NCBI RefSeq assembly: GCF_018476525.1
Contig: NZ_JAHCST010000003.1
Location: 186,001-250,000, forward strand
Direction of reading: 5' to 3'
Source: Acrocarpospora catenulata
Lineage (GTDB): Bacteria > Actinomycetota > Actinomycetes > Streptosporangiales > Streptosporangiaceae
Length of the DNA: 64,000 nt
Below, one piece after another: positions 2,215 to 17,413 of this stretch (positions are counted from its first letter, which is position 1; every line of letters begins with the position of its first letter). Under the pieces are notes generated by a model, which made no database searches, was not told where the DNA came from, and was given only the letters and a program-made list of their open reading frames with translations. A program made the translations under genes and the position numbers.

Positions 2215-3767
2215 CCGATGTTCCGCTGACGGCCCGCCCAGTACGGCCGGCGCAACGCCACCTTGTCGATCTTGCCGAAGGGCGTCTCCGGCAACACCTC
2301 ACGCACCTCGATCGACTTCGGGCGCGCGTACCCGGCCAGCTGTCCCCGCACCCAGGCCAGTACCTCCTCCACGGCGAACTCCCCTGAGACGGGGACCACC
2401 ACGGCGTGCACCGCCTCGCCCCAGTCGTGGTGCGGGATGCCGATCACCGCGACCCGGCTGATCGCGGGGTGCTGGACCAGCACGTCCTCCACCTCCCGGC
2501 AGTAGACGTTCATGCCGCCGGAGATGACCATGTCGTTCTTCCGGTCCTGCAGGTAGAGGTAACCGGCGTCGTCGAGATAGCCGATGTCTCCGGTACGGAC
2601 CCAGGGACCGAGGAACTTGGCGCGGGTCGCCTCCGGATCGCCGAGGTAGCAGTCGAGAGCGTACGGCGAGCGCAGGCAGATCTCGCCGGTCTGCCCCGGC
2701 GGGACCGGTGTGCCCTCGTCGTCCACCACCTGGACGTCGGTCATGATCGACGCCTGCCCGCAGGAGCCCAGCAACTGCGGCCGGGCCGGGTCGTGGTCGC
2801 TCTTGGGCAGGCGGGTGCCCCAGTTGGGCACCTCGGTCTGGCCGTAGAGCTGGATGAACACCGGGCCGAGGACGCGCAGCGCCTCCGCGAGCCGGGTCGG
2901 TGAGATCGGCGCGGCGCCGTACACGACGGTGCGCAGGCGCAGCGCCACCTCCGGGCGGCGGGCGAGCACGTCGAGCAGCCGGTAGATCATCGTCGGGACC
3001 AGGAAGGTCCAGGTGATCCGGTCGCGGTGGAGCAGTTCGACCGTCTGCTCGGCGTCGAAGCCGTCCCGGATGACGATGGTCGCCCCGCGCAGCAACGCGG
3101 ACTGGGCGAACAGCCCGGCGGCGTGGGCCAGCGGCGTCATCAGCAGCAGCCGCTCGTCGTGCAGGATCTCGGCCTCAAGCAGCTGCGCGTAGTGCAGCGC
3201 GACGGCCGAGGACTGGGTGTGCACGACCCCCTTGGGCAGGCCGGTCGTCCCCCCGGTGAAGTAGATCGCCGCCCGGTCCGCAGGCGCGGGGAGGCTGAGC
3301 CTCGGCAGGTCCGGGACGTCGTCCGGGAGGTCGGCCAGGTGTGCCACCTCGGGGACGGCGGGCCCCGGGCCGTCGGCCACCTGTACCGGTGCCGGATCCA
3401 CTCCCGACTCGGCTGCGGCCCCGAGCGCGATCTCGGCGAGGCCGACGCCGAAGACCAGCACCTTGGCCTGGGTCCTGGCCAGGATGTGGGCGACGGTGGC
3501 CTGCGGCAGCATGTGGTTCACCGGCAGCTTGACCGCGCCCAGCCGGGCGATCGCGACGTCGACCACCACGAACTGGGGGCAGTTGCGGGTGTGGACGGCC
3601 ACCACGTCGCCCGTACCGACGCCCAGTTCGCGCAGTTGCCCGGCCACCGCGAGCGACCAGCGGTCGAGCTCGGCGAAGCTCAGCCGGCGCTCGCCGTACT
3701 CGATGGCGGTCCGGTCCGCGTGGCGGCGCAGGGCATGGTCGAACTCCTCACCCAAGGTGGTACGCAC
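2211..3767 (-). CDS. AMP-forming acyl-CoA synthetase (FadD/MenE superfamily), copy 1
   Basis: A 518-residue ANL-superfamily ligase that activates a carboxylic acid to its CoA thioester through an acyl-adenylate. Visible motifs are the P-loop FTGGTTGLPKGV, the adenine-binding YGQTE region, the RTGDIGYLDDAGY stretch, RKNDMVISGGMN at the hinge, and the C-terminal catalytic lysine in ETPFGKIDK. Start is the GTG at 3767, preceded by GAGGAG. It lies 6 bp downstream of the MaoC gene and overlaps the DUF35 gene by 4 bp. It is one of three such ligases in the island; the acid it takes cannot be inferred from sequence by eye. Confidence 0.9.
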   Translation of the reverse strand: MRTTLGEEFDHALRRHADRTAIEYGERRLSFAELDRWSLAVAGQLRELGVGTGDVVAVHTRNCPQFVVVDVAIARLGAVKLPVNHMLPQATVAHILARTQAKVLVFGVGLAEIALGAAAESGVDPAPVQVADGPGPAVPEVAHLADLPDDVPDLPRLSLPAPADRAAIYFTGGTTGLPKGVVHTQSSAVALHYAQLLEAEILHDERLLLMTPLAHAAGLFAQSALLRGATIVIRDGFDAEQTVELLHRDRITWTFLVPTMIYRLLDVLARRPEVALRLRTVVYGAAPISPTRLAEALRVLGPVFIQLYGQTEVPNWGTRLPKSDHDPARPQLLGSCGQASIMTDVQVVDDEGTPVPPGQTGEICLRSPYALDCYLGDPEATRAKFLGPWVRTGDIGYLDDAGYLYLQDRKNDMVISGGMNVYCREVEDVLVQHPAISRVAVIGIPHHDWGEAVHAVVVPVSGEFAVEEVLAWVRGQLAGYARPKSIEVREVLPETPFGKIDKVALRRPYWAGRQRNIG

Positions 3768-3773
3768 GGCTCC

Positions 3774-4190
3774 TCAACCTTTCCTTGCCTGACAAACGGG
3801 CAGGTCCACGGTGGCGGTACCGGTCAGCACCTCGGTGCCGCCGGGACCGCGCAGCCACACCCGTAACCGCACCCGCGACCCCTCCCCGTCAGCCACCTCG
3901 CCCCCGGCGGTCACCTCGTCACCGTCGAACACGTTGCCGAGAAACCGGACCCGCACCTCGCGCAGCGCCGCCGACGAGCCCGCCCACCGGGTGATCGCGC
4001 GCACCACGTACGCGACGTTCAGCCCGCCCTGGTTGACCAGCCGGTCGCCCAGACCGGCCGCGCGGACCGCCGCCACGTCGAAGTGGATCGGGTTCGGGTC
4101 GGCGGTGAGCAGGGTGAACACCCGCATCGGGCCCGCCTCGACGGTGGTGCGCACCTCGGGCAGCACGCCGTCCCACGGCTCGGCCGTCAT
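3774..4190 (-). CDS. MaoC-like (R)-enoyl-CoA hydratase, catalytic subunit
   Basis: A 138-residue single hot-dog protein. It carries the hydratase-2 motif as LLTADPNPIHFD (residues about 28-39), with the catalytic aspartate and histidine both present, followed by NQGGLNVAYV. It probably hydrates an enoyl-CoA. The 148-residue hot-dog gene just upstream (4187-4633) overlaps it by 4 bp and lacks the motif. Such pairs form heterodimeric hydratases, as in steroid-degrading ChsH1-ChsH2. I infer that this gene supplies the active site and its neighbour the substrate-binding fold. Confidence 0.83.
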   Translation of the reverse strand: MTAEPWDGVLPEVRTTVEAGPMRVFTLLTADPNPIHFDVAAVRAAGLGDRLVNQGGLNVAYVVRAITRWAGSSAALREVRVRFLGNVFDGDEVTAGGEVADGEGSRVRLRVWLRGPGGTEVLTGTATVDLPVCQARKG

Positions 4191-4633
4191 GGCGCCCTCC
4201 GGACCAGGACGAAGCTGCTGGTGGCCGAGGCGGCCACCGTGCCCGCCGGCTCGTGCAGGTCGAGCCGGAAGGTGAGCACGTCGAAGACCCCGGACCGGCG
4301 GCCCGTCCTGCGGTCAAGACCGGTGACCTCACCCGCCACCGTGTACTCGGTCGCCGGGCGGAGCGGGACGATCTGGGACAGGGCCACCTCCCCGAAGAGC
4401 ACGCCGTCCTCGACCCGCGCGTCGGCGAGTCCGATCAGCTCCGCGATGGTGGTGCCCATGCCGCGCAACCCGGCGACGAGAATCCAGGTGGGGTCGAGGA
4501 CCCCGTCGTCCGGGTCGGCGCGCATCGCCTCGTGGCCCAGCCATGCCTCGTGCGGCTCGATCCGGACCCGCCCGCCGGGGAGCCGGTACCCGACCAGCCG
4601 GTCGGACAGTTCGGCCGCGCTCGCCGGGTTCAC
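4187..4633 (-). CDS. MaoC dehydratase N-terminal-type (FAS1_DH) hot-dog protein, non-catalytic subunit
   Basis: A 148-residue hot-dog protein of the MaoC_dehydrat_N kind: it has the conserved opening SDRLVGYRLPGGRVRIEPHE and a core around VLFGEVALSQIVPLRPATEY, but no D-x-N-P-x-H hydratase motif. Together with the catalytic MaoC at 3774-4190 it likely forms a heterodimeric enoyl-CoA hydratase. Start is GTG at 4633, overlapping the stop of the DUF35 gene (GTGA). In steroid-degrading ChsH2 a MaoC domain is fused to a DUF35 domain; here the two are separate adjacent genes. Confidence 0.78.
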   Translation of the reverse strand: MNPASAAELSDRLVGYRLPGGRVRIEPHEAWLGHEAMRADPDDGVLDPTWILVAGLRGMGTTIAELIGLADARVEDGVLFGEVALSQIVPLRPATEYTVAGEVTGLDRRTGRRSGVFDVLTFRLDLHEPAGTVAASATSSFVLVRRAP

Positions 4634-5109
4634 GGCTGTGCGGGCGCCACGGCGAAGTGGGCGATGTCGGTGATGGCGGCGGTGCGCTCGTCCGCCCAGA
4701 CCGCCCGCACCCGGACCCCGCCGCGCAGCGCCTTGCGCGCGGCGTCCACGTCGCTCAGGTCCACTCCGCCGACGAAGTGCATGAGCAGCGAGTGGGTGCC
4801 GTCGATCTCGATCGCGCCGACCGCGTACGGCGCCTGCGGGCCGCCGTCGAACCCCTGGTAGACGATGGTCGCCGTGCGCAGGGTGCCCACCGGCTCACAC
4901 TCCTGCCACCTGGTGATCGGTTCGTAGCAGGCCTCGCAGTAGCTCTGCGGGGGCAGATAGGTGCGGTCGCAGTGGTCGCAGGTGCTGGCGAGCAGCTTCC
5001 GGTCGCGCAGGCCGCGCATGAACCGGCTCCAGGCCCGGCCGAGCCGCACCCGGTAGTCGATCTCCCAGCGGACGTCGTGGATCAGGGCCGCTGTGCTGGT
5101 CTCGCTCAT
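4630..5109 (-). CDS. DUF35 Zn-ribbon/OB-fold protein, partner of the thiolase-like proteins
   Basis: A 159-residue DUF35 protein with four zinc cysteines (CDHC, then CEAC about 12 residues on) after an N-terminal helix (VRLGRAWSRFMRGLRDRKLL), then an OB fold. It sits between the MaoC pair and two thiolase-fold genes, the order expected if it bridges hydration and carbon-carbon cleavage as the DUF35 part of ChsH2 does with Ltp2. It is longer than the DUF35 copy at 1816-2214 because of the N-terminal helix, a region used in known complexes to contact the thiolase partner. The gap to the thiolase upstream is 25 bp, with a purine-rich GAGAGGAAAAATC before the ATG. Confidence 0.85.
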   Translation of the reverse strand: MSETSTAALIHDVRWEIDYRVRLGRAWSRFMRGLRDRKLLASTCDHCDRTYLPPQSYCEACYEPITRWQECEPVGTLRTATIVYQGFDGGPQAPYAVGAIEIDGTHSLLMHFVGGVDLSDVDAARKALRGGVRVRAVWADERTAAITDIAHFAVAPAQP

Positions 5110-5134: not shown

Positions 5135-6304
5135 TCACAGGTCGACCCGTTCCAGCACGGTCGCCGTGTGGAACTGGAAGAACGTGCCGCCCGTGCTGTG
5201 CGCGAGGCCGCGGCGCGCGCCCTCGACCTGACGGGCGGTGGCCTGGCCCATCAGCTGCGTCGCGATGTGCGCGACCGGCGAGATCTGGCCGGCCACCCCG
5301 GGGTTGGTGCACTGGATGCCGCCGGAGAGGTTCACCGGGAGGTCGCCGCCGTACCGGGTGACGCCCTTGCGGAGCAGCTCCGGCGCGCCCCCGTACGGGC
5401 AGAGCCCGAACGCCTCCATCAACATGAACTCCATCGGCGCGTACGGGTTGAACAGCTCGACGACGTCGAATTCGCTACGCGGGTCGACGACCTGGGCCTC
5501 CCGGTAGGCACGGCGGGCCATCACCTCGACCACCTCGAAGGTCGAGAAGTCCCGCCGCTTGCCGCCGAGGTAGCCGTCGCTGATGGACTGCGCGGCGGTG
5601 ATCCGCGCCACCGGATGCCCGGCCTGCCCGCCTACCACGCTCTCGGCGCCGACCACCAGGGCGATCGCCCCGGACGAGACCGGGCAGACCATGCCCAGCC
5701 GCAGCGGGGTGGAGACCATGCGGGCCGCGTGCTCGGCCGAGAGCGCGCTGGTGACGTGGGCGAAGGGGTTGTGGTCGGCGTTCTCCCTGTTCTTGGTGGC
5801 CAGCAGCTCGAAGTCGGCGTCGGTGACGCCGTACCGCTCCTGGTAGGCGGCGGGGAAGAAGGCGCCCATGTGCACCGCGCCCATGCCCAGCGGCTGCTCC
5901 ATCACCATCGGCGAGTTGGTGTTGATCACGGCCTGCAGGTCGACCGGCCCGTCGAAGGTGTTGGGCGCGACGCACAGCACGCGCTGGGCGAACCCGGCGC
6001 GGATCAGCGCGGCCGCCTGGTTGGGCAGGTGCCCGCCGGTGGTGCCGCCGGTGCAGATCGGCAGCACGGTGGTGTACGGCGGCAGGCCCAGCGCGGGGGC
6101 GATCGTGCGCGCCGCCACGCTGGACGCCTCGAAGCCCGCGATGTCGCCGATGATCACCACATCGATGTCCCGCCGGTCGCAGCCGGCGTGTTCGAGGGCC
6201 CGGTCCACCGCGAGCCGGCAGAGCTCGTTCTTGGACAGTTCCTGCCGCCGGGGGGAGGTGGCCTCGGTGAAGCCGACCCCGGCGATGACCGCGTGGTCTC
6301 TCAT
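5135..6304 (-). CDS. Thiolase-fold protein with altered active site (possible Ltp2-like retro-aldolase)
   Basis: A 389-residue thiolase-fold protein starting MRDHAVIAGVGFTEATS. The ATG at 6304 is chosen because it overlaps the stop of the upstream gene (ATGA); an earlier in-frame start would run far into that gene. A cysteine stands at the nucleophile position (LPICTGGTTGG). The usual HDAF motif, however, reads FNPYAP and the usual GHPxGATG motif reads CTNPGVAG, so both catalytic histidines are missing. Proteins with such changes include the Ltp2 aldolases of steroid side-chain degradation, which work with a DUF35 partner. A DUF35 gene follows directly. A retro-aldol role is inference; a non-enzymatic scaffold role is the alternative. 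Confidence 0.8.
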   Translation of the reverse strand: MRDHAVIAGVGFTEATSPRRQELSKNELCRLAVDRALEHAGCDRRDIDVVIIGDIAGFEASSVAARTIAPALGLPPYTTVLPICTGGTTGGHLPNQAAALIRAGFAQRVLCVAPNTFDGPVDLQAVINTNSPMVMEQPLGMGAVHMGAFFPAAYQERYGVTDADFELLATKNRENADHNPFAHVTSALSAEHAARMVSTPLRLGMVCPVSSGAIALVVGAESVVGGQAGHPVARITAAQSISDGYLGGKRRDFSTFEVVEVMARRAYREAQVVDPRSEFDVVELFNPYAPMEFMLMEAFGLCPYGGAPELLRKGVTRYGGDLPVNLSGGIQCTNPGVAGQISPVAHIATQLMGQATARQVEGARRGLAHSTGGTFFQFHTATVLERVDL

Positions 6305-7410
6305 ACTCCCTCCAGCACCAGGACGTTGACGGTCGAGGAGACCAGCCCGCACAGGTCGTCGGCCGCGTGCACGACCGCGACGCCGCCGTGGTCGTCGGCC
6401 AGGTTGTCGAGCGTCTCCACCACCCGCAGCAGGCCGTTGGCGATGCCGGGGTAGTTGGCGCGCACCCCGCCCGAGCGGTTGATCCTAGGCGCGTCCAGGC
6501 CGTCCAGGTCGAGCGCGGACCGGATCTCCGCGCTGAGCGCGGGGCTCAGGTCGGTGAGCTCGACCGAGCCGACCTGCTCGGCCGGATGGTCGAGGCCGGC
6601 CATCGCGTAGGCGCGCGTGCGGGCCACCGCGGTGGCGGCGCCGGGGTCGGCGAGCCAGCCGGGGTTGGCGGTGGCGGGCGCGGTCGCCGAGCCCCAGCCC
6701 GCGATCCTGGCCCGGGGGCGGGGGCAGCGGCGCGCGGACACGCCCGCGGCGAGCACCACCGCCCCCACCCCGGCGGACGCGGCGGGCAGCATGAGCTCGG
6801 TCAGCGGCGCGACCGCCATCGGCGCCGCGGCCACCTCGGCGGCGGTCACGGCGGGGCGGGTGCCGCGCCGGGCCGCGCCCCGGGTGATCTCCGCCGCGGT
6901 CGCCGCCGCCAGCTCCTCGAACCTCGCCTGGCCCGCGTCGATCCGCTCGGCCGCGTGCAGGCCCAGGGTGACCGACGAGGTCATGCCGACGGGGCGGTCG
7001 AGGTGCGCGTCGAAGGTGTAGCTGCTCACGTGCTGGTCGAGCCGGCGGACGGCGCGCTCGGCGAGGCCGCCGATCTCGGGGACGTGGATGCCCGCGACGA
7101 TCGCGAAGTCCACGGCGCCGCCGGCCAGCCCGGCGAGGGCCACCAGCAGGGCGGCGGAGGCGTCGCCCTCGACCCGCAGCTCGTCGTTGAGGTAGCCCGC
7201 CGCCGCCGGGGCGGTGAGCGCGTTGGAGATCGACCTCGCGTCGTACAGGTCGAGCGAGCTGGTGATCGCCAGGCCGATCTGGTGACGGCGCACACCGGCG
7301 TCCCGCAGGGCGGCCGAGCAGCACTCGAAGACCAGCTCGTCGAGTTGAAGGTCGGTGTCGTCGCCGACCGTCCGCCACGCCGATCCCACGACGTACAGAT
7401 CAGGTGTCAA
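6301..7410 (-). CDS. Degenerate thiolase-like protein lacking the nucleophile cysteine
   Basis: A 369-residue protein with thiolase-fold hallmarks: the opening DLYVVGSAWRTVGDD, a core helix region at VEGDASAALLVALAGLAGG where the nucleophile cysteine would be, ELTDLSPALSAEI in place of HDAF, and NRSGGVRANYPGIANG in place of the GHP loop. No cysteine or histidine remains at the catalytic positions. It overlaps the next thiolase-fold gene by 4 bp, suggesting a heteromeric complex in which this is the inactive subunit. Start is TTG at 7410 with GGTGAGG upstream. As first gene of the leftward operon it lies 28 bp from the operator at 7439-7458. Confidence 0.75.
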   Translation of the reverse strand: MTPDLYVVGSAWRTVGDDTDLQLDELVFECCSAALRDAGVRRHQIGLAITSSLDLYDARSISNALTAPAAAGYLNDELRVEGDASAALLVALAGLAGGAVDFAIVAGIHVPEIGGLAERAVRRLDQHVSSYTFDAHLDRPVGMTSSVTLGLHAAERIDAGQARFEELAAATAAEITRGAARRGTRPAVTAAEVAAAPMAVAPLTELMLPAASAGVGAVVLAAGVSARRCPRPRARIAGWGSATAPATANPGWLADPGAATAVARTRAYAMAGLDHPAEQVGSVELTDLSPALSAEIRSALDLDGLDAPRINRSGGVRANYPGIANGLLRVVETLDNLADDHGGVAVVHAADDLCGLVSSTVNVLVLEGV

Positions 7411-7438
7411 TGGAACCTCACCCGGAAGTCTCCCTGCT

Positions 7439-7458
7439 TAGTTATTGGTTAATCACTA
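7439..7458. promoter_or_regulatory. Candidate operator site 1 of the catabolic island
   Basis: TAGTTAT-TGGTTA-ATCACTA, an imperfect inverted repeat with 7-bp arms and a 6-bp spacer. It differs by one base from the perfect copy at 10966-10985. It lies 28 bp upstream of the leftward thiolase operon and about 200 bp upstream of the divergent tetR gene, so one site could serve the operon and possibly autoregulation. Size and symmetry fit TetR-family operators. Confidence 0.7.
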
Positions 7459-7660
7459 GCGTGCAGTCTAGGCATGACGTCGCTCGCGCGTAAAGACAGA
7501 CCCCCCGCTTCGCGGCAATCACGCCCTTTTCGCCTGGGGAGATGTGGCATCATCGTCGAGGGGTGACCCTCCCAGGGGTACGTGGCGGGGTTCGAATCGC
7601 GTAGTGTGGAGCGCAGATTGACTGTTCACAAAGGCCGTTCCCGGGGCGAGGTGGCCTGAG

Positions 7661-8287
7661 ATGACCGACCCACGCGGCCGTGTCCGCGACCCGGCCCGCC
7701 GGGACCGGATTCTCGACGCGGCCACCGAGCTCATCGCCCAGCACGGCTACCTCGGGGTCAACCTGGCCGACATCGGGACCGCGGCGGGCATCGTCGGATC
7801 AGGCATCTACCGGCACTTCGACAGCAAGGCGGCCATCCTCGTCGAGCTGTTCGACCGCGTGGTCGACCGGCTGGTCACCGACGCCGAGGCCACGCTGCGC
7901 ACGGTCAGTGAGCCGCGGCAGACACTGGCCGCGCTGGTCCGCGCGCACGTGGCCTTCACCATGGACGAGCGCGATCTCTGCCAGATCTACCTGCGGGAGT
8001 CGCGCAACCTACCGGACGGGGACCACCGGCGGCTGCGCTGGAAGCAGCGCCACTACCTCGACCTGTGGCACGACGTGCTGTGCGCGGTCCGGCCCGAGCT
8101 GGACCCGGCGCACGCTCAGGTGCGGGTGCACGCCGCGATCTCCTGCATCCACTCGATCCTGCGCTACCGCAGCCCGCTGCCCTACGAGGAACTCGCCGAC
8201 CAGCTCACCGAGGCGGCCTGCCGGGCCCTCGGCATCACCGTCACCGCCGCCGCGGACCAGCCGGACACCGCCACCGCGGCCTCCTGA
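7661..8287 (+). CDS. TetR/AcrR family regulator, likely controller of the island
   Basis: A 208-residue TetR protein. The N-terminal helix-turn-helix is clear at about residues 10-60 (RDRILDAATELIAQHG, then IYRHFDSKAAIL), and the C-terminal half is the usual all-helical ligand and dimer domain, of the type found in regulators of lipid and acyl-CoA catabolism. A GAGGTGG stretch precedes the ATG at 7661. The gene is divergent from the thiolase operon and abuts, tail to tail, the nitronate monooxygenase-like gene. It is the only regulator within the island, so it is the natural candidate for the repeated 20-bp operator. An acyl-CoA or free-acid ligand is inferred. Confidence 0.9.
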   Translation: MTDPRGRVRDPARRDRILDAATELIAQHGYLGVNLADIGTAAGIVGSGIYRHFDSKAAILVELFDRVVDRLVTDAEATLRTVSEPRQTLAALVRAHVAFTMDERDLCQIYLRESRNLPDGDHRRLRWKQRHYLDLWHDVLCAVRPELDPAHAQVRVHAAISCIHSILRYRSPLPYEELADQLTEAACRALGITVTAAADQPDTATAAS

Positions 8288-9334
8288 TCAGGCCGGCGGG
8301 GCAGGACGGGTACGGGCGTTCAGGGCCGCCAGCACGGCGGCGGCGTCGGCGACCATCGCGGGGAGGAACTCGGCGACGTCGACCAGGTCGTCGATCGCGC
8401 CGCTGACCTGCCCGGCGGGCAGGATCCCGCCGTCGACGTCGCCGTCCCGCTGGGCACGGATCAGCCGCTCGTCCTTCCAGGCGGTCAGCGCGGCCAGGTC
8501 AAGACCGCCGCCGGCCACGATCTCGGCGAGCTCGTCGACGCCCCGGCTGGGCAGCGCCCGGGACGGCCCGTAGATGGCAGGGAAGGTGATGTCCTCGCCC
8601 TCGCGGGCGGCGAGCACGCGCCGGGCGTAGGCGGGATGCCAGTCGGTGTTGTCGCGGCTGGCCACGAACCTGGTGCCCAGCGCGACCGCGTCGGCGCCCA
8701 GCGCGAGGGCGGCGGCCATCGTCGCGCCGTCCCGGACGCCGCCGGCCAGCACCACCGGGCAGTCCACGGCGGCCGCCACGCTCGGCCCGAGCACGAACGT
8801 GTGCACGGGCCGCGCGTGGGTGTGGCCACCCGCCTCGTACCCGGAGGCGACGATCACATCGGCTCCTTCGCGACGTGCCCGGATCGCCTGCCTGGTGCCG
8901 CCGACCTTGTGGGCGTGGAGCAGCCCGCTCTCGGCGATCAGCGGGCGCACCACGCCGGGCGGCCCCGCCGAGGTGGTGATCATCCGCAGCCGCCGGGCGA
9001 TCTCCGGGTCGCGGACCGCCTCGACCACCGCCCCCACATAGGCGGCGCTGAACGGGAGCACCTCGCCGTCGGCGGCGGTGCCGACCGGCACGTTGACCGC
9101 GAAGGGCCGGTCGGTCAGCGCACAGGTCTCCTCGATGTAGCCGCGCAGGATCGCGGCGCCCCTGGCCGGCTCCTCGCTCACCCCCGGGATGCTGACCGTC
9201 CCCAGCCCGCCCGCGTTCGACACCGCGGCGGCGAGCCGTACCGTCCGGTACGGCCCGAGCCCCTCCTGCACCACCGGATGGGTGATGCCCAGCAGGTCGG
9301 CGAACCGGCTGGCGATGGTGACCGGCGCGCTCAC
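8288..9334 (-). CDS. Nitronate monooxygenase / 2-nitropropane dioxygenase family flavoprotein
   Basis: A 348-residue FMN-dependent TIM-barrel protein. Visible signatures are the N-terminal LGITHPVVQEGLGP, the ASGYEAGGHTH substrate/FMN loop, and the C-terminal phosphate-binding AGGVRDGATMAAALALGADAV. Family members oxidise nitronates or reduce enoyl groups (FabK-like), so the true reaction here is unclear; an enoyl-CoA or quinone reductase role would suit a pathway that otherwise lacks an acyl-CoA dehydrogenase. Start is GTG at 9334, overlapping the ligase stop (GTGA). It ends exactly next to the tetR stop, with no space for a terminator between the convergent genes. Confidence 0.85.
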   Translation of the reverse strand: MSAPVTIASRFADLLGITHPVVQEGLGPYRTVRLAAAVSNAGGLGTVSIPGVSEEPARGAAILRGYIEETCALTDRPFAVNVPVGTAADGEVLPFSAAYVGAVVEAVRDPEIARRLRMITTSAGPPGVVRPLIAESGLLHAHKVGGTRQAIRARREGADVIVASGYEAGGHTHARPVHTFVLGPSVAAAVDCPVVLAGGVRDGATMAAALALGADAVALGTRFVASRDNTDWHPAYARRVLAAREGEDITFPAIYGPSRALPSRGVDELAEIVAGGGLDLAALTAWKDERLIRAQRDGDVDGGILPAGQVSGAIDDLVDVAEFLPAMVADAAAVLAALNARTRPAPPA

Positions 9335-10941
9335 GCCGCCCCCGTCCGGGCGCGCAGCGACCCGTAGGTGATGACGCCGTCGGCGTCCAGGACCAGGAGC
9401 CCGTCGACCTGGGTGCGCATCGCGCCCTGGTCCTTGCTCCGCTTGGCGGTCCGCGGCACCTCGTCGACCAGCACGTACAGCCGGGGCCGTTTCCACCGCT
9501 CCAGCTCCCGGATGCAGTGCTCGTCCAGCCGGTCCCGCGCCTGCTCCTCGGTGATGCCGTGCCGCATGGCCACGAACGCGGCGGGGACCTCGCCGAACCG
9601 CTCGTGCGCCACGCCGACGCAGGCGGCGTCCTGGACATCGGGGTGGTTGCGGAGCGCCTCGTCCACCTCCAGCAGGGACAGCTTCTCCCCGCCGGCGTTG
9701 ATGATGTCGTCGGTGCGGCCGCGGATGAAGTACCAGCCGTCGGGGTCGCGGTAGGCCCGGTCGCGGGTGTGCAGGTAGCCCTCGTCGTCGAACGCCTCTG
9801 CCGTGCGCTCCGGATCCGCGAGATATCCCGGGGTCACCACGTCGCCACGGATGCACACCTCGCCCTCGACGTCGTCGCCGAGCAGCCTCTCGCCGGTGAA
9901 CGGGTCCTTGAGCGCGACCTCGCAGAAGCTCCGGTTGGGCCGGCCGGAGGAACCCGCCGGTACCTGCGTCTCCTCGCCGTAGTAGAGCGACGGGCCGAGT
10001 ACGCAGACCGGCATCGCCTCGGTGAGTCCGTACATGTTGCCGACCTGCGCGCCTTTGGCCAGCAGCGCGTCGCGTACGTCGGCGGGGACCGGCTCGCCCG
10101 CCACGTAGGTCCGCAGCCCTCGCAGGTCGAGGCCGGGCCAGCGCGGGTGGCGCATGAGGTCCCTGGCCATGGTGGGGATGATCCAGTAGGCGAAGTTCGG
10201 CCGGTGCGTCTCGATGATCCGTACGACCCGCTCGACGTCCCAGCCGCCGCTCCACAGCACGGTGCCGCCCGCCATGGCCAGCCGGACCGTGTCGTGGATG
10301 CCGCCGCTGTGGTACATGCCGACCAGCGAGAGGTTGCGGGTGCGGCTGTCGATGCCGCCCAGGAAGATCGCACCCCAGGCCGAGGCGCTCAGCGTGCCGT
10401 GGGTGAACCGCACGCCCTTGGACGTGCCGGAGGTGCCGGAGGTGAAGTTCACCGCGGCCAGGTCGTCCGCCGAGCGGGGCGCGATGCGCAGTTCCTCGGG
10501 GGCCGCGGCGGCGAGTGCGAGCAGGTCGCGGAAGGGCGTCCCGTCCGGGGCGGTGCCCGCGACCAGGACGTGCTCGACGGTGGGGCAGGTGGCCAGCAGT
10601 CTGCCCAGCTCCAGGTGCTCGGGGGCGACGACGGCCACCTTCGCGCGGCAGCGATCGGTGTCGCCGAGCAGCCGCTCGGGGCGCAGCTTGTGGTTGAGGC
10701 CGCTGAAGGCCGCGCCCACGCCGACGGTGGCCCAGAAGACCGCCATGTGCACGTGGTCGTCGGGCATCGCCGTGACCACCATGTCGTCCTGGCCGACGCC
10801 GAGTTCGGCCAGGACGTTGCCGATGCGGTTGGACAGGGCGCGGAGCTCCCGATACGTCGTCGAGGCGCCGTCCGCGTCCACCACCGCGACGTTGTCGGGC
10901 GTCTCCCAGCAGGTCCGCTCCAGCCACCAACTCAGGTTCAT
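9331..10941 (-). CDS. AMP-forming acyl-CoA synthetase, copy 2
   Basis: A 536-residue ANL-family ligase. Motifs are FTSGTSGTSKGVRFTHG (P-loop), YGLTEAM, and RTDDIINAGGEKLS before the C-terminal domain. The final region reads VPRTAKRSKDQGAMR, a slightly altered form of the usual PRTxxGK catalytic-lysine motif. The open frame runs further upstream, but ATG at 10941 (MNLSWWLERTC) has a GGAG Shine-Dalgarno 7 nt away and matches the family's N-terminus. It is co-transcribed with the nitronate monooxygenase-like gene (4-bp overlap). A perfect operator copy lies 25 bp upstream of the start. Confidence 0.9.
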   Translation of the reverse strand: MNLSWWLERTCWETPDNVAVVDADGASTTYRELRALSNRIGNVLAELGVGQDDMVVTAMPDDHVHMAVFWATVGVGAAFSGLNHKLRPERLLGDTDRCRAKVAVVAPEHLELGRLLATCPTVEHVLVAGTAPDGTPFRDLLALAAAAPEELRIAPRSADDLAAVNFTSGTSGTSKGVRFTHGTLSASAWGAIFLGGIDSRTRNLSLVGMYHSGGIHDTVRLAMAGGTVLWSGGWDVERVVRIIETHRPNFAYWIIPTMARDLMRHPRWPGLDLRGLRTYVAGEPVPADVRDALLAKGAQVGNMYGLTEAMPVCVLGPSLYYGEETQVPAGSSGRPNRSFCEVALKDPFTGERLLGDDVEGEVCIRGDVVTPGYLADPERTAEAFDDEGYLHTRDRAYRDPDGWYFIRGRTDDIINAGGEKLSLLEVDEALRNHPDVQDAACVGVAHERFGEVPAAFVAMRHGITEEQARDRLDEHCIRELERWKRPRLYVLVDEVPRTAKRSKDQGAMRTQVDGLLVLDADGVITYGSLRARTGAA

Positions 10942-10965
10942 CGTTCGACTCCAACCGCGTCGGAT

Positions 10966-10985
10966 TAGTGATAGTCGAATCACTA
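10966..10985. promoter_or_regulatory. Candidate operator site 2 (perfect inverted repeat)
   Basis: TAGTGATAGTCGAATCACTA: perfect 7-bp arms around a 6-bp spacer. It lies 25 bp upstream of the leftward CoA ligase start, where a bound repressor would block the promoter. It is the best copy of the motif and defines the consensus TAGTGAT-N6-ATCACTA. Confidence 0.8.
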
Positions 10986-11162
10986 TGGTGGTGCATGATA
11001 AGTGAGGACTTTCCTCGGGTAAAGCCTCCCTTCGCGGTCGCCTCGGCGGGGCGGTCCGCGGCCCGGCGATGTCCGGTCGCACCACGATGAGCTGAGCTGA
11101 CGTTGTGAATCCGAGTCCAAGTTGGGGCTTTACAGCGCCCCCGCGTGCCGCCTACGGTCCCA

Positions 11163-11182
11163 TAGTGAATGACCAATCTCTA
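11163..11182. promoter_or_regulatory. Candidate operator site 3
   Basis: TAGTGAA-TGACCA-ATCTCTA, one mismatch in each 7-bp arm relative to the perfect copy at 10966-10985, with the same 6-bp spacer. It is 122 bp upstream of the ABC importer operon. Its placement makes the importer part of the same regulon as the two leftward operons. Confidence 0.7.
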
Positions 11183-11304
11183 GTTTCGCCCCCACCGGAG
11201 CGCGCCGTGGGGTGCGTGCCGTTCCGCAGTGCTGCGGACCGCGACGACGGACGCCGAGCACGGCGTGTCCGCGGACCCCGGCCGTCCGACCCGTAAGGAG
11301 CCAC

Positions 11305-12195
11305 ATGGGGGACTACCTGCGCGACGCCATCACATTGGGCGGCGTGTACGTACTGTTCAGCCTGGGCCTCACGCTCTCGTGGGGAGTACTGAACATCCTC
11401 AACCTCGCGCACGGCAACGTACTCGTCGCCGCGGCGTTGAGTGCATACCTGCTCACCACCCAGGTCGCTCTGCCGATGGCGCTGCTGCTGCCCGCGTGCA
11501 TGCTCGTGGGGGCGCTCCTCGGCCTCGGGCTGGAACTGCTGGTCTTCCGGCCGATCCGGGCCCGCGCCGCCGACGAGGAGAGCACCCAGTTGGCTGTGCT
11601 CATCGGCAGCGTCGCGGCGGGGGCGCTGCTGTACGCGATCGCCGAGCGCATCACCGACGGCCGGGTGCGCGCGGTCGATCCCGGCACGTTCACGGTCACC
11701 GACTACCTGGTGGCCGGGGTGCGGGTCAGCAACCTGCAGCTCCTGATCGTCGGGGTCTCCCTCGTGCTGAGCGTGCTGCTCGCGCTGCTGGTCAGCCGTA
11801 CCCGCCACGGTCGCGCCCTGCGCGCCATCGCGGTGGACAGGGTGACCTGCGGGCTGCTCGGCGTGCCCACCGCGCGGCTCGCGGCGGTCACCATGGCCAC
11901 CGCGGGGGCGCTGGCCGGAGCGGGTGGCCTGCTGCTGGCACTCCACCTCGGCTCGGTGGAGGCGAGCATGACCGAATCGCTGCTCCTCAAGGCCTTCGCT
12001 GTGATCATCATCGGCGGGGTGGGCAGCGTCGGGGGCGCGATCCTCGGGGCGTACCTGCTGGCCGGTGCCGAGGTGTTCTCCGTCGCTTACCTGGGCTCCG
12101 GCGTCCGTGACGCCGTGGTGTTCCTGGTGATCCTCGGGTTGCTGTTGCTCCGCCCGCAGGGTTTGTTCGCCCGTACCGCCTGGCAGCGGTCATGA
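11305..12195 (+). CDS. Branched-chain-type (HAAT) ABC transporter permease, LivH-like
   Basis: A 296-residue integral membrane permease beginning MGDYLRDAITLGGVYVLFSLG, the typical LivH N-terminus, with hydrophobic helices throughout and the GGVGSVGGAILGAYLL loop near the C-terminus that contacts the ATPase. ATG 11305 is chosen because of the AAGGAG at 11295-11300; earlier in-frame starts add hydrophilic residues unlike the family. It is the first gene of a rightward operon with livM, livG, livF and a binding lipoprotein. Beside CoA ligases, HAAT importers commonly bring in aromatic or alicyclic acids rather than leucine, and that is the likelier role here. Confidence 0.88.
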   Translation: MGDYLRDAITLGGVYVLFSLGLTLSWGVLNILNLAHGNVLVAAALSAYLLTTQVALPMALLLPACMLVGALLGLGLELLVFRPIRARAADEESTQLAVLIGSVAAGALLYAIAERITDGRVRAVDPGTFTVTDYLVAGVRVSNLQLLIVGVSLVLSVLLALLVSRTRHGRALRAIAVDRVTCGLLGVPTARLAAVTMATAGALAGAGGLLLALHLGSVEASMTESLLLKAFAVIIIGGVGSVGGAILGAYLLAGAEVFSVAYLGSGVRDAVVFLVILGLLLLRPQGLFARTAWQRS

Positions 12196-13100
12196 TGCTC
12201 GCCGCGGCCGACTGGTTCGGCGCGGGCGACAGCACGATCCGCACCGCGTTGGTCTACGTGCTGCTCGCGTACGGCATTCACCTGGCGCTGCGGACCGGGA
12301 CCTTCTCCCTCGCGGCTGTGGCGACCTACGGCACCGGCGCCTACACCGCCGGTGCGCTGGCGCTGGACGGGTGGTCGCCCGTCGCGGCGGTCGCGGCGGC
12401 GGTGGTCCAGGCCGCGGTCGCCGGGCTGGTCCTGGCCCTGGTGCTCGCCCGGCTGCGCAACCTGTACCTGGCGATGGCCACGCTGGCCGCGGTGCTGCTG
12501 GTCCACGTGCTGGCTCTGGAGTGGGAGTCGGTCACCGGGGGCGCGCTCGGGCTGCTGGGCATTCCGCGCGGCGTCACGGTTCCCCAGCTGTTGGTGATCG
12601 TCGCGCTCTGCACGCTCGCGGTGGCGCTCGGGGAACGCGGGCGTACCGGCCGGATGCTTGAGGCGCTGCGGCTGGACGACCAGCTCGCCGCGAGCGTCGG
12701 GATCGACGTGGTGCGGGCGCGGCGGGTGGCCTTCGTGCTGAGCGCCGCGCTCGGCGGGCTCGCCGGGTCGCTCTCGGCACTGCAGTTCAGCGTGCTGACC
12801 CCCGACGAGATCTCGTTCGCGCTGATCGTCGACGTCCTGACGATCGTGGTGATCGGCGGCACCGCCGCCTGGTACGGCCCGCTCATCGGCGCGGTGGCGC
12901 TGGCCTGGCTGCCCGAACTGCTCCGCTGGACCGGCGACCTGCGGCCGATCGTGCAGGCCGCGATCGTGGTCGTCCTGGTGGTCTGCGCCCCTGACGGCGC
13001 GGCCGGCCTGATCCGCGCCGTCGCCGCTCGGCTGCGCCGTCTCCGTCGCCGGGAGAACGGGCTGGACGTCGTACCCGCCGTGGAAGGAGCCGTCCGATGA
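12192..13100 (+). CDS. Branched-chain-type ABC transporter permease, LivM-like
   Basis: A 302-residue second permease with many membrane helices. The LivM-type EAA-like region includes MLEALRLDDQLAASVGIDVVRARRVAFVLSA split over the central cytoplasmic loop, and the end is a short basic tail (RLRRLRRREN). The ATG overlaps the livH stop by 4 bp. It would form the heterodimeric channel with the LivH-like protein. It is shorter than many LivM proteins but has all expected segments. Confidence 0.87.
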   Translation: MMLAAADWFGAGDSTIRTALVYVLLAYGIHLALRTGTFSLAAVATYGTGAYTAGALALDGWSPVAAVAAAVVQAAVAGLVLALVLARLRNLYLAMATLAAVLLVHVLALEWESVTGGALGLLGIPRGVTVPQLLVIVALCTLAVALGERGRTGRMLEALRLDDQLAASVGIDVVRARRVAFVLSAALGGLAGSLSALQFSVLTPDEISFALIVDVLTIVVIGGTAAWYGPLIGAVALAWLPELLRWTGDLRPIVQAAIVVVLVVCAPDGAAGLIRAVAARLRRLRRRENGLDVVPAVEGAVR

Positions 13101-13831
13101 CCGCCCTGATGGAGCTCCACGACGTGGCGGTCCACTTCGGTGGGGTCCGCGCGGTGGACGGCGTGAGCCTCACGATCGGCGAAGGCTCGGTGCACGGGAT
13201 CGTCGGCCCGAACGGCTCGGGCAAGACCACGCTGCTCAACGCGATGTCCGGCCTGCAGCCGCTCACCGCGGGCCGGATCGCCCTGCGCGGACAGGATGTC
13301 ACCGGGCTGGCCGGCCACCAGATGAGCCGGGCCGGAGTGGTGCGGACCTTCCAGTCCATCCGGCTGCTGCCGTCCCTGACCGTGTACGAGAACGTCCTGC
13401 TCGGCGCGGAGCACACCCGGGGCCGCCGTCACACCGCGGAGACCACCGCCGGCGCCCGGGCGGCCCTCGCCCGGCTGGAGATCACCCACCTCGCCCGGCG
13501 ACACCCGGACGAGCTGTCCTACGGGACCCGCCGCCGCGTGGAGATCGCCCGCGCCCTGGCCGGATCTCCGGCGCTGCTCCTGCTGGACGAACCGCTCGCC
13601 GGGATGAACCGGTCGGAGCGCACCGAGCTGATCGACACCCTCCGCCGTCTCGGCGGTGAGGGCGTCACCCAGGTCGTGATCGAGCACGACGTGCCCATGC
13701 TGCTGGACGTCTGCGACCACATGTTCGTCATGAGCTCGGGCCGGCTGCTGGCCGAGGGCCATCCCCCCGACGTGGTCGCCGATCCGCGGGTCCGCGAAGT
13801 CTACTTGGGACGCCACCATGACGCTGCTTGA
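13097..13831 (+). CDS. ABC transporter ATP-binding protein, LivG-like
   Basis: A 244-residue ATPase: Walker A GPNGSGKTT, Q-loop region RTFQSIRLLPSLTV, signature LSYGTRRRVEIARAL (the usual LSGGQ reads LSYGT, normal for LivG) and Walker B LLLLDEPLAGMN followed by the H-loop IEHDVPML. It powers the importer with the LivF-like partner. The start overlaps livM by 4 bp. Confidence 0.9.
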   Translation: MTALMELHDVAVHFGGVRAVDGVSLTIGEGSVHGIVGPNGSGKTTLLNAMSGLQPLTAGRIALRGQDVTGLAGHQMSRAGVVRTFQSIRLLPSLTVYENVLLGAEHTRGRRHTAETTAGARAALARLEITHLARRHPDELSYGTRRRVEIARALAGSPALLLLDEPLAGMNRSERTELIDTLRRLGGEGVTQVVIEHDVPMLLDVCDHMFVMSSGRLLAEGHPPDVVADPRVREVYLGRHHDAA

Positions 13832-14564
13832 GGTCAACGGGCTGGTCGTACGCTACGGCCGGCTCACCGCGGTGCACGGTCTCGACCTGACCGTGGCCGA
13901 GGGCGAGGTCGCGATCCTGCTCGGCGCCAACGGCGCGGGCAAGAGTTCCACACTCGGCGCGATCAGCGGCGTGGTGCCCGTCGCGGCCGGTGAGGTGCTC
14001 TTCGCGGGCAGGCGGCTCTCCGGACGGCCCCCGCACGTGATCGCCCGCAGCGGGCTGGTCCAGGTGGCGGAGGGACGGCGGATCATCGGACCGCTCACCG
14101 TCCGGGAGAACCTCGAACTGGGCGGTTACGCCGTGCGCTCGGCACGCCTGCGGGGCGAGCGCATCCGCATGGTGACCGACCTGTTCCCCGAACTCGGGCC
14201 GCTCGCCGACCGGCCGGGCGGCCTGCTGAGCGGCGGCGAGCAGCAGATGCTCGCGATCGGCCGGGCCCTGATGGCCGATCCGCGGCTGCTCATGCTGGAC
14301 GAGCCGTCGATGGGCCTGGCGCCGGTGGTCACCGACCGCGTGATCGACGCCGTCGCCGACATCGCCGCGCGGGGCACCGCCATCCTCATGGTCGAGCAGA
14401 ACGTCTCGGCCGCCTTCCGCGTCGCCACCACCGCCCACGTCATGGAGCGCGGCGAGATCACCCTGTCCGGTCCCGCCTCCGAGGTCGCCGGCAGTCCGCA
14501 CGTGCTCCGCGCCTTCCTCGGCACCGCCGACACCCCCCAGGTAATAGAGGAGACCACGCCATGA
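13818..14564 (+). CDS. ABC transporter ATP-binding protein, LivF-like
   Basis: A 248-residue ATPase with Walker A GANGAGKSS, signature LSGGEQQMLAIGRAL, Walker B LLMLDEPSMGLAP and the H-loop MVEQNVS, all as in LivF. ATG 13818 overlaps the previous gene by 14 bp, a tight translational coupling. It completes the ATPase pair of the importer. Confidence 0.92.
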   Translation: MTLLEVNGLVVRYGRLTAVHGLDLTVAEGEVAILLGANGAGKSSTLGAISGVVPVAAGEVLFAGRRLSGRPPHVIARSGLVQVAEGRRIIGPLTVRENLELGGYAVRSARLRGERIRMVTDLFPELGPLADRPGGLLSGGEQQMLAIGRALMADPRLLMLDEPSMGLAPVVTDRVIDAVADIAARGTAILMVEQNVSAAFRVATTAHVMERGEITLSGPASEVAGSPHVLRAFLGTADTPQVIEETTP

Positions 14565-15739
14565 CCGTTCGCTTCCGTCGATGGCCGTCGGCCGTCGCCG
14601 CGCTGCTCGCCGCCACCCTGCTCGCCGGATGCGGCGGCGGCGCCGACACCTCCGGTTCGGCCGGTACGGCGAGTCCGGCCCGGCCCGCCGAGTTCAGCAT
14701 CGACTTCGTGCTCGACCAGACCGGTGTCGTCCAGGTGTTCACCGGCGCCGTGAAGGAGGGCTGGGACCTGCGCATCGACCAGGCCAACCAGCAGGGCGAG
14801 CTGCCGGGGACGACCCTGCGCACCCGCATCCACGACACCCAGAGCGACCCCAAGGTCGGCGCCGGCCTGATGTCGGAGGTGGCCGCCTCCGACGCCCCTC
14901 TCGCGGTGTTCGGGACCAGCAGCTCCATCGCTCCCGCGGTAGCGCCGATCGCCCAGTCGGCGGGGCTGCCACTGGTCACCCTCTACTCCGGCGGCCCCGG
15001 CGTGGTCGACGCGGGCGACCACGTCTTCCGGGTGACCGCGCCGCAGTCCTCCTACCACCACCTGCAGAGCGCCTACTTCGCGAGCGAGGGGGTCAAGCGC
15101 GTCGCGATCGTCTACAACAACGACGTCGGCACCCTGAAGAACCTGGCCGAGGAGTTCTACCCGGAGGCGGCCGGAAAGGACGGCTACGAGATCGTGCACA
15201 GCGCCGGGGTGTCGGCGAAGGCGACCGACCTGTCCGCGGAGCTGACCGGGGTGCTCGCCGCCAAGCCGGACGCGGTGCTGATGCTGGTGCTCAGCCAGCA
15301 GAACACCTCCATCGTCACCCAGCTCCGCCGGGCCGCCTTCCCGGGCATCATCGCCGGTCAGCCCGGCATCGGCCGGCAGGCGCTGGAGGCGCTCGGGTCC
15401 GCCGCGGACGGCGTGGTCTATCCGATCGACTTCACCGCCGACATCGCGGCGCCGTCGGGCAAGGCGTTCGCCGAGGCGTACCGGGCCCGCTACAACAAGG
15501 ACCCCGACACCTTCGCGGCCTCCGGTTACGATGGCGCGACCATGGTGATCGAGGCGTTGAAGGTGACCACCGGGTTCGACCGGGAGTCGATGCTCGCGGC
15601 GCTGAACAAGGTGGCCGCCGCCGGTTTCGACGGCGCCGTGGGTCCGCTGCGCTTCGAGAACCGGGACGCCAGGGTGGCCGGGATGATGGTGCGCTGGACG
15701 GAGGGCCGCGAGGTCCCGCTGAACGGCACCGGAGGCTGA
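14561..15739 (+). CDS. ABC transporter substrate-binding lipoprotein (LivK-like, periplasmic-binding-protein type I)
   Basis: A 392-residue secreted lipoprotein. The signal peptide (residues 1-23) ends in the lipobox LLAGC, with Cys24 as the lipidated residue, followed by a Gly/Ser-rich linker. The mature part is a type I periplasmic-binding fold (EFSIDFVLDQTGVVQVF, then VFGTSSSIAPAVAPIAQSA). It captures the imported acid outside the membrane and hands it to the LivHM channel. The ATG overlaps livF by 4 bp. The ligand cannot be read from sequence; the link with three CoA ligases points to a carboxylic acid. Confidence 0.9.
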   Translation: MTVRFRRWPSAVAALLAATLLAGCGGGADTSGSAGTASPARPAEFSIDFVLDQTGVVQVFTGAVKEGWDLRIDQANQQGELPGTTLRTRIHDTQSDPKVGAGLMSEVAASDAPLAVFGTSSSIAPAVAPIAQSAGLPLVTLYSGGPGVVDAGDHVFRVTAPQSSYHHLQSAYFASEGVKRVAIVYNNDVGTLKNLAEEFYPEAAGKDGYEIVHSAGVSAKATDLSAELTGVLAAKPDAVLMLVLSQQNTSIVTQLRRAAFPGIIAGQPGIGRQALEALGSAADGVVYPIDFTADIAAPSGKAFAEAYRARYNKDPDTFAASGYDGATMVIEALKVTTGFDRESMLAALNKVAAAGFDGAVGPLRFENRDARVAGMMVRWTEGREVPLNGTGG

Positions 15740-15745
15740 TCGACC

Positions 15746-17413
15746 ATGGCCATCGATGTGGAGCGCCTGATCGACCGGCGCAACGACGACCGGTGGAACC
15801 GGATGGCCGTCGGGGACATCCTCGAACGCGTCGCCTGGGCCGAGCCGGACAAACCCGCGCTGATCGCCGCCCCCGAGGCGGTGGCCGACCCGCGGTACGC
15901 GCGGGTGGGGTACCGCCAGGGGGACCGCCTGGCCAACCAGGTCGCCAACGCCCTGCTCGCGCTGGGTCTGCGGCGCGGCGACCGGGTGGCGATGTTCTGC
16001 GAGAACTCGGTGGAGGCGTACCTGGTGAAGCTCGGCATCGCGAAGGCCGGCCTGGTCGCGGTGCCGATCAACACGATGATGGCCGGCGATCTGGTGGTGC
16101 ACATGCTCCGCCACGTGGCGGCGGAGGTCGCCGTGGTGGACGCCGACCACTGGGCGGAGCACGGCGCCGCGTACCAGGCCGCCACCGGGATCATGCCGGT
16201 GGCCGGGATCCGCGGCGGCGTCCCGCTGCCCCCGGGGGTGCCGGAGTTCCACGACCTGGTCCGCGACATGCCCGACACCGAGCCGGACGTCCGGATCCAC
16301 GGGGACGACATCTGGGAGATCCTGCCGACCTCGGGCACCACCGCGATGCCCAAGGCCGTGATGGTCTCGCACACCTACTCCTACTCCGCGGCCTTCGCGC
16401 ACGCGCTGTCCTATACCCGGGGACTGGCCGTGGAGTCGCAGGTGCGCATCTGCACCTACCTGCCGATGATCTTCCACATCGGGGACCACGCCTACCTGCT
16501 GGCCGCGTTCCTCTCCGGGGGCACGGCGGTGCTCGGGCGCAGGCCCACCGGCGCGGCGATCGCGGCGACCGTCACCCGGGAGCGGATCACCGCGCTGTGG
16601 GGCGGTTCGCCGCAGTTCCTCGCCGAGCTCGCCCGCGCGGTCCGGGACGAGCCCGGCCGTTTCGACCTGTCCAGCATTGAGGTGATCATCTACGGCTGGT
16701 CGGCGATGCCGCCTGAACTGACCGACGAGCTCACCGAGATGTGCGGCGGCCGGGTGCAGTTCGTCGGCATCTTCGGCCAGACCGAGGCCATCGCCTGCCA
16801 CCGGTTCTGGCCCAACTCCCGGCCGGAGCTGCACCGGCGGACCGCGCCGCAGACCAACTACGTGGGCGTCCCCGCGCCGCTGCTCGGGTCCACGGTGGTG
16901 GACGCCGACGGCCGGTCGCTGGCGGACTCGCCAGGGGTGCCGGGCGAGGCGGTGTACCGCTCCCCGGCGATGTTCTCCGGTTACTACCGGGACGAGGCCG
17001 CCACCCGGAACGCCTTCCGGCACGGCTGGTTCCACAGCGGTGACATGTGCAGTTACGGTGAGGACGGGCTGCGGATCATGGTCGACCGCTACAAGGACGT
17101 GGTGAAGTCCGGCGGAGAGAACGTCTCCAGCATCCGGGTGGAGTCGGTGCTCGGGCAGCATCCCGCGGTGTCCAGGGCCGCGGTGGTCGGCGTGCCGCAC
17201 GAACGGTGGGGCGAGGAGGTCGTCGGGGTGGTGGTGGCGGAGCCGGGCGCCTCGCTCGACGAGCCCGACGTGATCGCCTTCTGCCGCGCCAGGCTGGCCG
17301 GCTACGAGACGCCGAAACGCCTGGTGGTGCTGGACGACCTGCCGAGCACGGTGGGCGGAAAGGTGCTCAAGTACCGGCTACGCGAGATGCTGCGCGACAG
17401 GCCCCCGACATGA
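15746..17413 (+). CDS. AMP-forming acyl-CoA synthetase, copy 3
   Basis: A 555-residue ANL ligase: P-loop TSGTTAMPKAVMVSHTYS, YGWSAMPPELTDE, GIFGQTEAIAC, hinge KDVVKSGGENVSSIRVE and a C-terminal PSTVGGKVLKYRLRE with the catalytic lysine. A GGAGG precedes the ATG at 15746. It follows the importer's binding protein directly, so it probably traps the freshly imported acid as a CoA ester (vectorial uptake, an inference). It overlaps the enoyl-CoA hydratase by 4 bp. Confidence 0.9.
   Translation: MAIDVERLIDRRNDDRWNRMAVGDILERVAWAEPDKPALIAAPEAVADPRYARVGYRQGDRLANQVANALLALGLRRGDRVAMFCENSVEAYLVKLGIAKAGLVAVPINTMMAGDLVVHMLRHVAAEVAVVDADHWAEHGAAYQAATGIMPVAGIRGGVPLPPGVPEFHDLVRDMPDTEPDVRIHGDDIWEILPTSGTTAMPKAVMVSHTYSYSAAFAHALSYTRGLAVESQVRICTYLPMIFHIGDHAYLLAAFLSGGTAVLGRRPTGAAIAATVTRERITALWGGSPQFLAELARAVRDEPGRFDLSSIEVIIYGWSAMPPELTDELTEMCGGRVQFVGIFGQTEAIACHRFWPNSRPELHRRTAPQTNYVGVPAPLLGSTVVDADGRSLADSPGVPGEAVYRSPAMFSGYYRDEAATRNAFRHGWFHSGDMCSYGEDGLRIMVDRYKDVVKSGGENVSSIRVESVLGQHPAVSRAAVVGVPHERWGEEVVGVVVAEPGASLDEPDVIAFCRARLAGYETPKRLVVLDDLPSTVGGKVLKYRLREMLRDRPPT

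Follow-up and report, generated by a model that had tools for sequence, protein, structure and literature searches.

Organization of the locus

A region of contig NZ_JAHCST010000003.1 of Acrocarpospora catenulata (positions 186,001 to 250,000, a stretch of 64,000 nt that is referred to here as the window) harbors a gene for a TetR-family regulator and three operons whose products include thiolase-like proteins, acyl-coenzyme A (acyl-CoA) ligases and a branched-chain-type importer, and a palindrome lies ahead of each operon (putative operators A, B and C, Table 1). A first-pass annotation had described three copies of a 20-bp inverted repeat, TAGTGAT-N6-ATCACTA, and had proposed that they join the three operons into one TetR regulon; the copies were found at the positions and with the arms that it gave. 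The core is best expressed as TAGTGA-N8-TCACTA, from which site B shows no mismatch and sites A and C one each. Each copy lies just upstream of one operon, as had also been noted: site A is 29 nt from the start of the thiolase-like gene (TTG at 7410), site B 25 nt from the ligase ATG at 10941 and site C 123 nt from the livH start at 11305, sites B and C being in a single shared divergent intergenic region.

Within the window, three matches to TAGTGAT-N6-ATCACTA occur at up to three mismatches, compared with a mean of 0.28 in 100 shuffles, none of which reached three. Across the whole 10.29-Mb assembly, both the longer form TAGTGATT-N4-AATCACTA at up to three mismatches and the core at up to one mismatch are restricted to these three places. 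At two mismatches the core is found at 21 additional places, all on other contigs (24 in total at up to two), while a first-order Markov model with the composition of the window predicts genome totals of 0.02, 1.5 and 44 for up to zero, one and two mismatches respectively, and a reversed-pattern control gave 69 matches at up to two; the two-mismatch places are regarded as background because the control and the Markov expectation both exceed the observed number. The feature that stands out is the packing of three close core matches into 3.7 kb, an observation that is real and not due to chance.

Family scans of the window proteins confirmed the gene content previously described for the cluster. 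The regulator belongs to the TetR family by its N-terminal TetR_N helix-turn-helix domain (PF00440, 53.7 bits, Pfam cut-off 24) and additionally carries TetR_C_24 (39.6 bits, cut-off 26.4). Judging from gene spacing, each of the groups A, B and C probably forms one transcript. No carboxylase or acyl-CoA dehydrogenase was present among the scanned proteins of the 2.2–18.2 kb cluster and no AtuA (acyclic terpene utilisation) protein either, the own-genome AtuA match being solely on another contig, C153. Relatives of the regulator at E ≤ 1e-30 were found in 41 of 200 family genomes, its own included, the best other match showing 52% identity, and the four same-genus genomes listed gave no match at this threshold; on the basis of this distribution it is plausible that the TetR of the cluster was gained by transfer.

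Table 1. Features of the tetR locus, with the own-genome paralogue discussed in the text
Feature	Positions	Strand	Remarks
Putative operator A	7439..7458	-	TAGTGATTAACCAATAACTA in the direction of operon A; one half-site is GTTA
Putative operator B	10966..10985	-	perfect core; ahead of the ligase/nitronate monooxygenase operon
Putative operator C	11163..11182	+	TAGTGAATGACCAATCTCTA; ahead of the importer/ligase/hydratase operon
Putative promoter of operon A	7465..7494	-	TTTACG-18-TAGACT; operator begins 6 nt on
Putative promoter of operon B	10995..11023	-	TTTACC-17-TATCAT; operator begins 9 nt on
Putative promoter of operon C	11129..11158	+	TTTACA-18-TACGGT; operator begins 4 nt on
TetR-family regulator	7661..8287	+	208 aa; TetR_N and TetR_C_24; recognition helix VGSGIY
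Operon A: thiolase-like/lipid-transfer-like protein	6301..7410	-	369 aa; no Pfam family above cut-off
Operon A: thiolase	5135..6352	-	Thiolase_C_1; real start probably closer to 6304
Operon A: zinc-ribbon OB-fold protein	4630..5109	-	ChsH2/DUF35-type
Operon A: hypothetical protein	4187..4633	-	kept in the Rhodococcus cluster
Operon A: MaoC-like hydratase	3774..4190	-	
Operon A: acyl-CoA ligase	2211..3767	-	
Operon B: acyl-CoA ligase	9331..10941	-	69–71% to Rhodococcus plasmid orthologues
Operon B: nitronate monooxygenase/FabK-like flavoprotein	8288..9331	-	
Operon C: branched-chain-type ABC permease, LivH-like	11305..12195	+	
Operon C: ABC permease, LivM-like	12192..13100	+	
Operon C: ABC ATPase, LivG-like	13097..13831	+	
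Operon C: ABC ATPase, LivF-like	13818..14564	+	
Operon C: periplasmic binding protein, LivK-like	14561..15739	+	
Operon C: acyl-CoA ligase	15746..17413	+	53–58% to ligases of, or adjoining, AtuA-type terpene clusters
Operon C: enoyl-CoA hydratase/isomerase	17410..18222	+	start taken from translation
BkaR-type paralogue	L053 (G000:C154) 10418-11026		beside acyl-CoA carboxylase and dehydrogenase genes

Operon A (5138–7410) couples a thiolase with a second thiolase-like protein that, by eye and with some uncertainty, seems to lack the usual active-site cysteine. A retro-aldol role for a thiolase/OB-fold pair is known from steroid side-chain enzymes, and judged by sequence operon A may encode either a thiolase or a retro-aldolase activity.

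Position of the palindromes relative to promoters

All three palindromes of the window have TTTACn-N17/18-TAnnnT boxes upstream and begin 4–9 nt past the -10 box, over the expected start point. A promoter scan of positions 7300–11400 found the site B promoter independently as its sole match, and the putative promoters of operons A and C were not reported by it. When sites from other loci were included, promoter boxes with the operator 2–9 nt downstream were recognized at 8 of 11 sites tested. A dimer sitting over the start point would be expected to repress.

Conservation on Rhodococcus plasmids

The 369-aa protein of operon A was compared by tblastn with 72,556 plasmid records and matched seven of them, all from Rhodococcus. 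Three megaplasmids (NZ_CP083975, NZ_CP082159 and NZ_CP110470) encode it at 62–65% identity together with a TetR at 54–58%, which is divergent from the same six operon A genes, and in all three a perfect core lies between tetR and operon A. Orthologues of operon B (ligase 69–71%, nitronate monooxygenase 68–70%) are found on the same plasmids 24–39 kb from the TetR gene, again preceded in 3/3 by a perfect core at a distance of about 70 nt. The check proposed in the first-pass annotation, conservation of the motif upstream of orthologous operons, was thus run and gave a positive result for operons A and B. At up to one mismatch, the whole-plasmid search returned 3, 6 and 7 sites (16 altogether), and on each plasmid all of them fall in one stretch of 25–51 kb (549–574, 81–124 and 347–397 kb), to which the sites of operons A and B also belong. 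Among 96 proteins, the TetRs closest to that of the window are the three from these plasmids, and the four make up a single clade (SH-aLRT 99) in a quick tree built without bootstrap from the 96 distinct sequences of 104 stretches, the others being identical or unmatched.

Additional sites were seen on the R. opacus plasmid NZ_CP082159 (region L174, positions 16509, 28678 and 29033), near a hydantoinase/caprolactamase-like operon and a group of genes for a PtlE-related monooxygenase, an MBL hydrolase and a short-chain dehydrogenase; therefore the plasmid regulon may exceed that of the window.

The four further plasmids encode the 369-aa protein at 39–40%. The stretches read for two of them (L178 and L179) contain no relative of the window TetR at 1e-8 and no core at up to two mismatches, and the same was found for L181, where the operon C ligase has a homologue. 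In region L180, an AtuA cluster with a TetR of 46% identity, two 2-mismatch sites lie near tetR and none before the operon C ligase homologue. In L178, a gene of the limonene-1,2-epoxide hydrolase family (15202–15549) was observed near a thiolase/OB-fold operon related to operon A.

The wider TetR family and its loci

A collection of species genomes was scanned with an alignment of 11 TetRs, which confirmed 372 relatives, and the best 80 were kept (some of these 80 tetR loci are near-duplicates). Within 350 nt upstream of tetR, a core at up to two mismatches was found in 20 of the 80 loci compared with 1.0% of 1600 random stretches from the same loci, and at up to three mismatches in 34 compared with 3.9%. 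Because the motif is enriched beside homologous tetR genes, it can be linked to this TetR. More distant TetRs (42–53% to that of the window) often reside in acyclic-terpene (AtuA) clusters: an AtuA homologue of at least 38% identity is encoded in 48 of the 80 loci, a homologue of the operon C ligase of at least 50% in 22, and both in 18. In an Amycolatopsis example, Pfam confirmed AtuA, acyl-CoA dehydrogenase and both the alpha and beta subunits of the carboxylase.

The position of the cores within these clusters was examined by counting those upstream of each gene family, leaving aside homologues below the set identities, with starts past query residue 25 or with less than 200 nt upstream. 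At up to two mismatches and within 300 nt, cores precede 11 of the 21 operon C ligase orthologues (identity of at least 50%) whose start was readable, 10/29 carboxylase beta genes and 10/34 acyl-CoA dehydrogenase genes, all of them genes that often lead operons. None were found at this stringency before the mid-operon genes for AccA (0/31), AtuA (at least 55% identity; 0/23) and the hydratase (0/40), and 12 of the 40 hydratase genes had one at up to three mismatches. Two AtuA homologues of 43% (L075 and L083), which are outside this count, are directly preceded by a perfect core. When 24 of the 80 genomes were searched with the pattern, 13 had cores at up to one mismatch; these amount to 26 sites, 16 of them no more than 15 kb from tetR and the remaining 10 elsewhere in those genomes.

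Proposed regulation of the three operons and alternative explanations

The motif conservation at operons A and B and the enrichment beside tetR genes support, at the level of sequence, the one-regulon proposal of the first-pass annotation: very probably, the local TetR represses the three operons through the shared palindrome and is released by an acyl-CoA of the pathway. TetR would bind TAGTGA-N8-TCACTA, probably as a dimer, at the transcription start of the operons at 2.2–7.4, 8.3–10.9 and 11.3–18.2 kb and would thereby block RNA polymerase. The inducer would be a pathway intermediate, most likely a branched or alicyclic (terpenoid-type) acid that one of the three ligases has converted to its CoA ester; this ester would occupy the C-terminal domain of TetR and release it from the DNA, so that the importer, activation and cleavage genes would be switched on jointly. 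The cluster probably degrades a terpenoid or branched acid. The terpenoid hint comes from the AtuA context of the relatives of the window TetR and from the one-mismatch sites of R. opacus near the flavin monooxygenase, MBL hydrolase and short-chain dehydrogenase genes; this monooxygenase is related to the Baeyer–Villiger enzyme PtlE and scores far under the cut-off of that model.

Several observations weigh against this regulon. Sites at up to two mismatches are missing from half or more, approximately, of the relatives that lead operons, and among the 24 genomes that encode a related TetR, 11 lack a core at up to one. The reversed-pattern control gave 46 matches in these 24 genomes compared with 26 for the core, so that only the location of the sites is informative there and not their totals; likewise, the plasmid totals at up to two mismatches (10, 14 and 18) compare with 19 control matches on each. 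The three Rhodococcus operon B sites have perfect operators and no recognizable promoter boxes. Ten of the 31 regulators with a VGSG-type recognition helix have no exact GTGA-N8-TCAC within 400 nt, that of the window being among them with a hybrid site only. Autoregulation is not evident, the tetR start being 203 nt from site A with no closer site. The genes tetR and operon A diverge across 250 nt; of four TetR-family regulators with a spacing above 200 nt in a survey of Streptomyces, three left the divergent gene unregulated, exceptions such as AtuR being named there (PMC3511530). Finally, no complete operon C orthologue carrying a site was found, and a search of the plasmid collection, the carriers of operons A and B included, gave no match to LivK at 1e-40.

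The LivK result also bears on an alternative in which TetR governs operons A and B and site C is weak or decayed; operon C would then be under other control, or under that of site B at a distance of about 180 bp. Of the three sites, C has the largest number of arm mismatches. However, site C has a single core mismatch and lies 4 nt downstream of a promoter of the same geometry as the other two, and a LIV-type operon of Nocardioides zeae (33–51% identity) shows two cores, one with a single mismatch and one with two, ahead of the probable ATG of the gene for its binding protein, which makes separate control of operon C improbable. In the same N. zeae region (L156, 14374–14524), three successive sites were seen ahead of the LIV-type binding-protein gene, one of which is by eye a GTGA/TAAC hybrid. 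At 1e-50 the operon C binding protein has, besides its own genome, only two matches of 35% among 100 family genomes.

A second alternative is that the sites serve another regulator, such as the BkaR-type paralogue on contig C154, and that the adjoining TetR is incidental. The operator of BkaR (Rv2506/MSMEG_4718) is given in PMC3920632 as GTTA-N-T-N4-A-N-TAAC. The C154 paralogue is 37% identical to the window TetR and has two GTTA-N8-TAAC sites at its own gene, with one perfect and one 1-mismatch GTTANT-N4-ANTAAC operator; its label rests on this operator and on its neighbors, not on the MSMEG_4718 protein. Site A, with its hybrid GTTA/TCAC half-sites, is one of nine places in the genome within one mismatch of the BkaR-type operator, which is no excess over the 10 of the reversed control. 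Sites B and C, on the other hand, are GTGA sites and absent from these nine places, and the Rhodococcus plasmids retain this TetR beside perfect GTGA sites. The recognition helices of related regulators point in the same direction. Relatives with [TS]GP[AG]L (36–40%) have GTTA-N8-TAAC within 400 nt in 16/16 cases and GTGA/TCAC in 0/16, whereas GTGA-N8-TCAC accompanies 21 of the 31 VGSG[IV] regulators, and hybrids accompany seven; for comparison, background frequencies in 820-nt stretches are 3.9% for GTGA/TCAC, 0.3% for GTTA/TAAC and 1.8% for the hybrid. Control of the cluster by the C154 paralogue or a similar protein in place of the local TetR is therefore considered very unlikely. Six regions with distant homologues of 37–41% (L048–L053) included four with a BkaR-type operator and none with the GTGA core at up to two mismatches.

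Other helix types complete the comparison: [TS]GSG[IV] regulators have GTGA-N8-TCAC in 1/29 and hybrids in seven, VGPAI regulators have hybrids in 8/9 and GTGA-N8-TCAC in 3/9, and one of 11 regulators with other helices has GTTA-N8-TAAC. Mycobacterial loci including L082, L090, L105 and L107 were seen to combine a VGPAI-type regulator with hybrid GTTA/GTGA operators near the gene, and several of them hold AtuA. Phylogenetically independent contrasts on supported branches number only three and one, from few clades, and since these are too few, the relation between helix and operator is a correlation only. It is a tentative and rather doubtful idea that a natural operator code exists ([TS]GP[AG]L for GTTA, VGSG[IV] for GTGA, VGPAI for the hybrid) and that site A is shared by the BkaR-type (branched-chain acyl-CoA) and terpenoid-type repressors that coexist in this genome, which would wire two catabolic regulons together; its probability is slightly reduced because one-mismatch BkaR-type places are no commoner than chance.

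Activation by TetR at these promoters would have a precedent, as some members of the family activate and AtrA did so on its divergent gene (PMC3511530), but at most tested sites the -10 box comes before the operator, a position from which a bound dimer would block polymerase, and this reading is most unlikely. Chance palindromes or terminator hairpins have a negligible probability: short palindromes with one or two mismatches do arise by chance, as the Markov expectation at up to one mismatch illustrates, but no shuffle of the window reached three, a scan of 7300–11400 showed no terminator-like site and orthologous promoters keep the motif.

Comparison with known systems

Repression of the three operons by the local TetR would constitute a regulon of known type, and three characterized systems offer the nearest comparisons. 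Mce3R (PDB 9b7y) is the best PDB sequence match of the window TetR (3e-36). It differs in being a tandem double TetR with a non-palindromic operator (PMC11667970); the window protein has 208 aa and one TetR_N domain as opposed to the about 400 aa of the tandem protein, and its sites are palindromic, so it was rejected as a Mce3R.

AtuR/RdmA of Pseudomonas is a TetR repressor of AtuA-type clusters for acyclic terpene utilisation, and relatives of the window TetR similarly occupy AtuA-type clusters of actinobacteria. The operator of AtuR consists of two 13-bp repeats, AGCAAGCGCTTGG/CCAAGCGCTTGCT, of other sequence (PMC9973270). An assignment of the window TetR as the AtuR of an acyclic terpene cluster was rejected on the absence of an AtuA gene from its cluster.

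The closest resemblance is to BkaR, a TetR repressor of acyl-CoA/ligase genes whose operator has the same length and the same geometry, GTxA-N8-TxAC. The two differ by one base per half-site (GTTA/TAAC in BkaR, GTGA/TCAC in the window), in the recognition helix ([TS]GPAL and VGSGI respectively) and in the lack of carboxylase genes in the window cluster. The best curated model for the window TetR is NCBIfam NF050111 (the SACE_7040 family), for which it scores 157.2 bits, under the curated cut-off of 250; the C154 paralogue, with 246.4 bits, likewise remains just under it. Membership of the window TetR in the BkaR/SACE_7040 group was rejected on this score, on the absence of GTTA-N8-TAAC at its own gene and on the absence of an adjacent carboxylase or dehydrogenase. 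The earlier statement that the motif matches no nameable operator must consequently be divided: its geometry is that of BkaR, whereas no naming of the exact operator TAGTGA-N8-TCACTA was found in the open-access literature searched. One of the 11 novel motifs of mycobacterial TetR regulators reported in PMC4482099 could be related.

For an uncharacterized actinobacterial CoA-ester catabolic cluster, the analysis provides a candidate operator, a candidate regulator and a bounded gene set, and it ties this cluster to terpene-degradation clusters and plasmid-borne catabolic islands. A natural specificity code is possible in this family, and with an operator that differs from that of BkaR by one base per half-site and a genome that encodes both regulators, it becomes directly testable how operator specificity evolves in TetR proteins.

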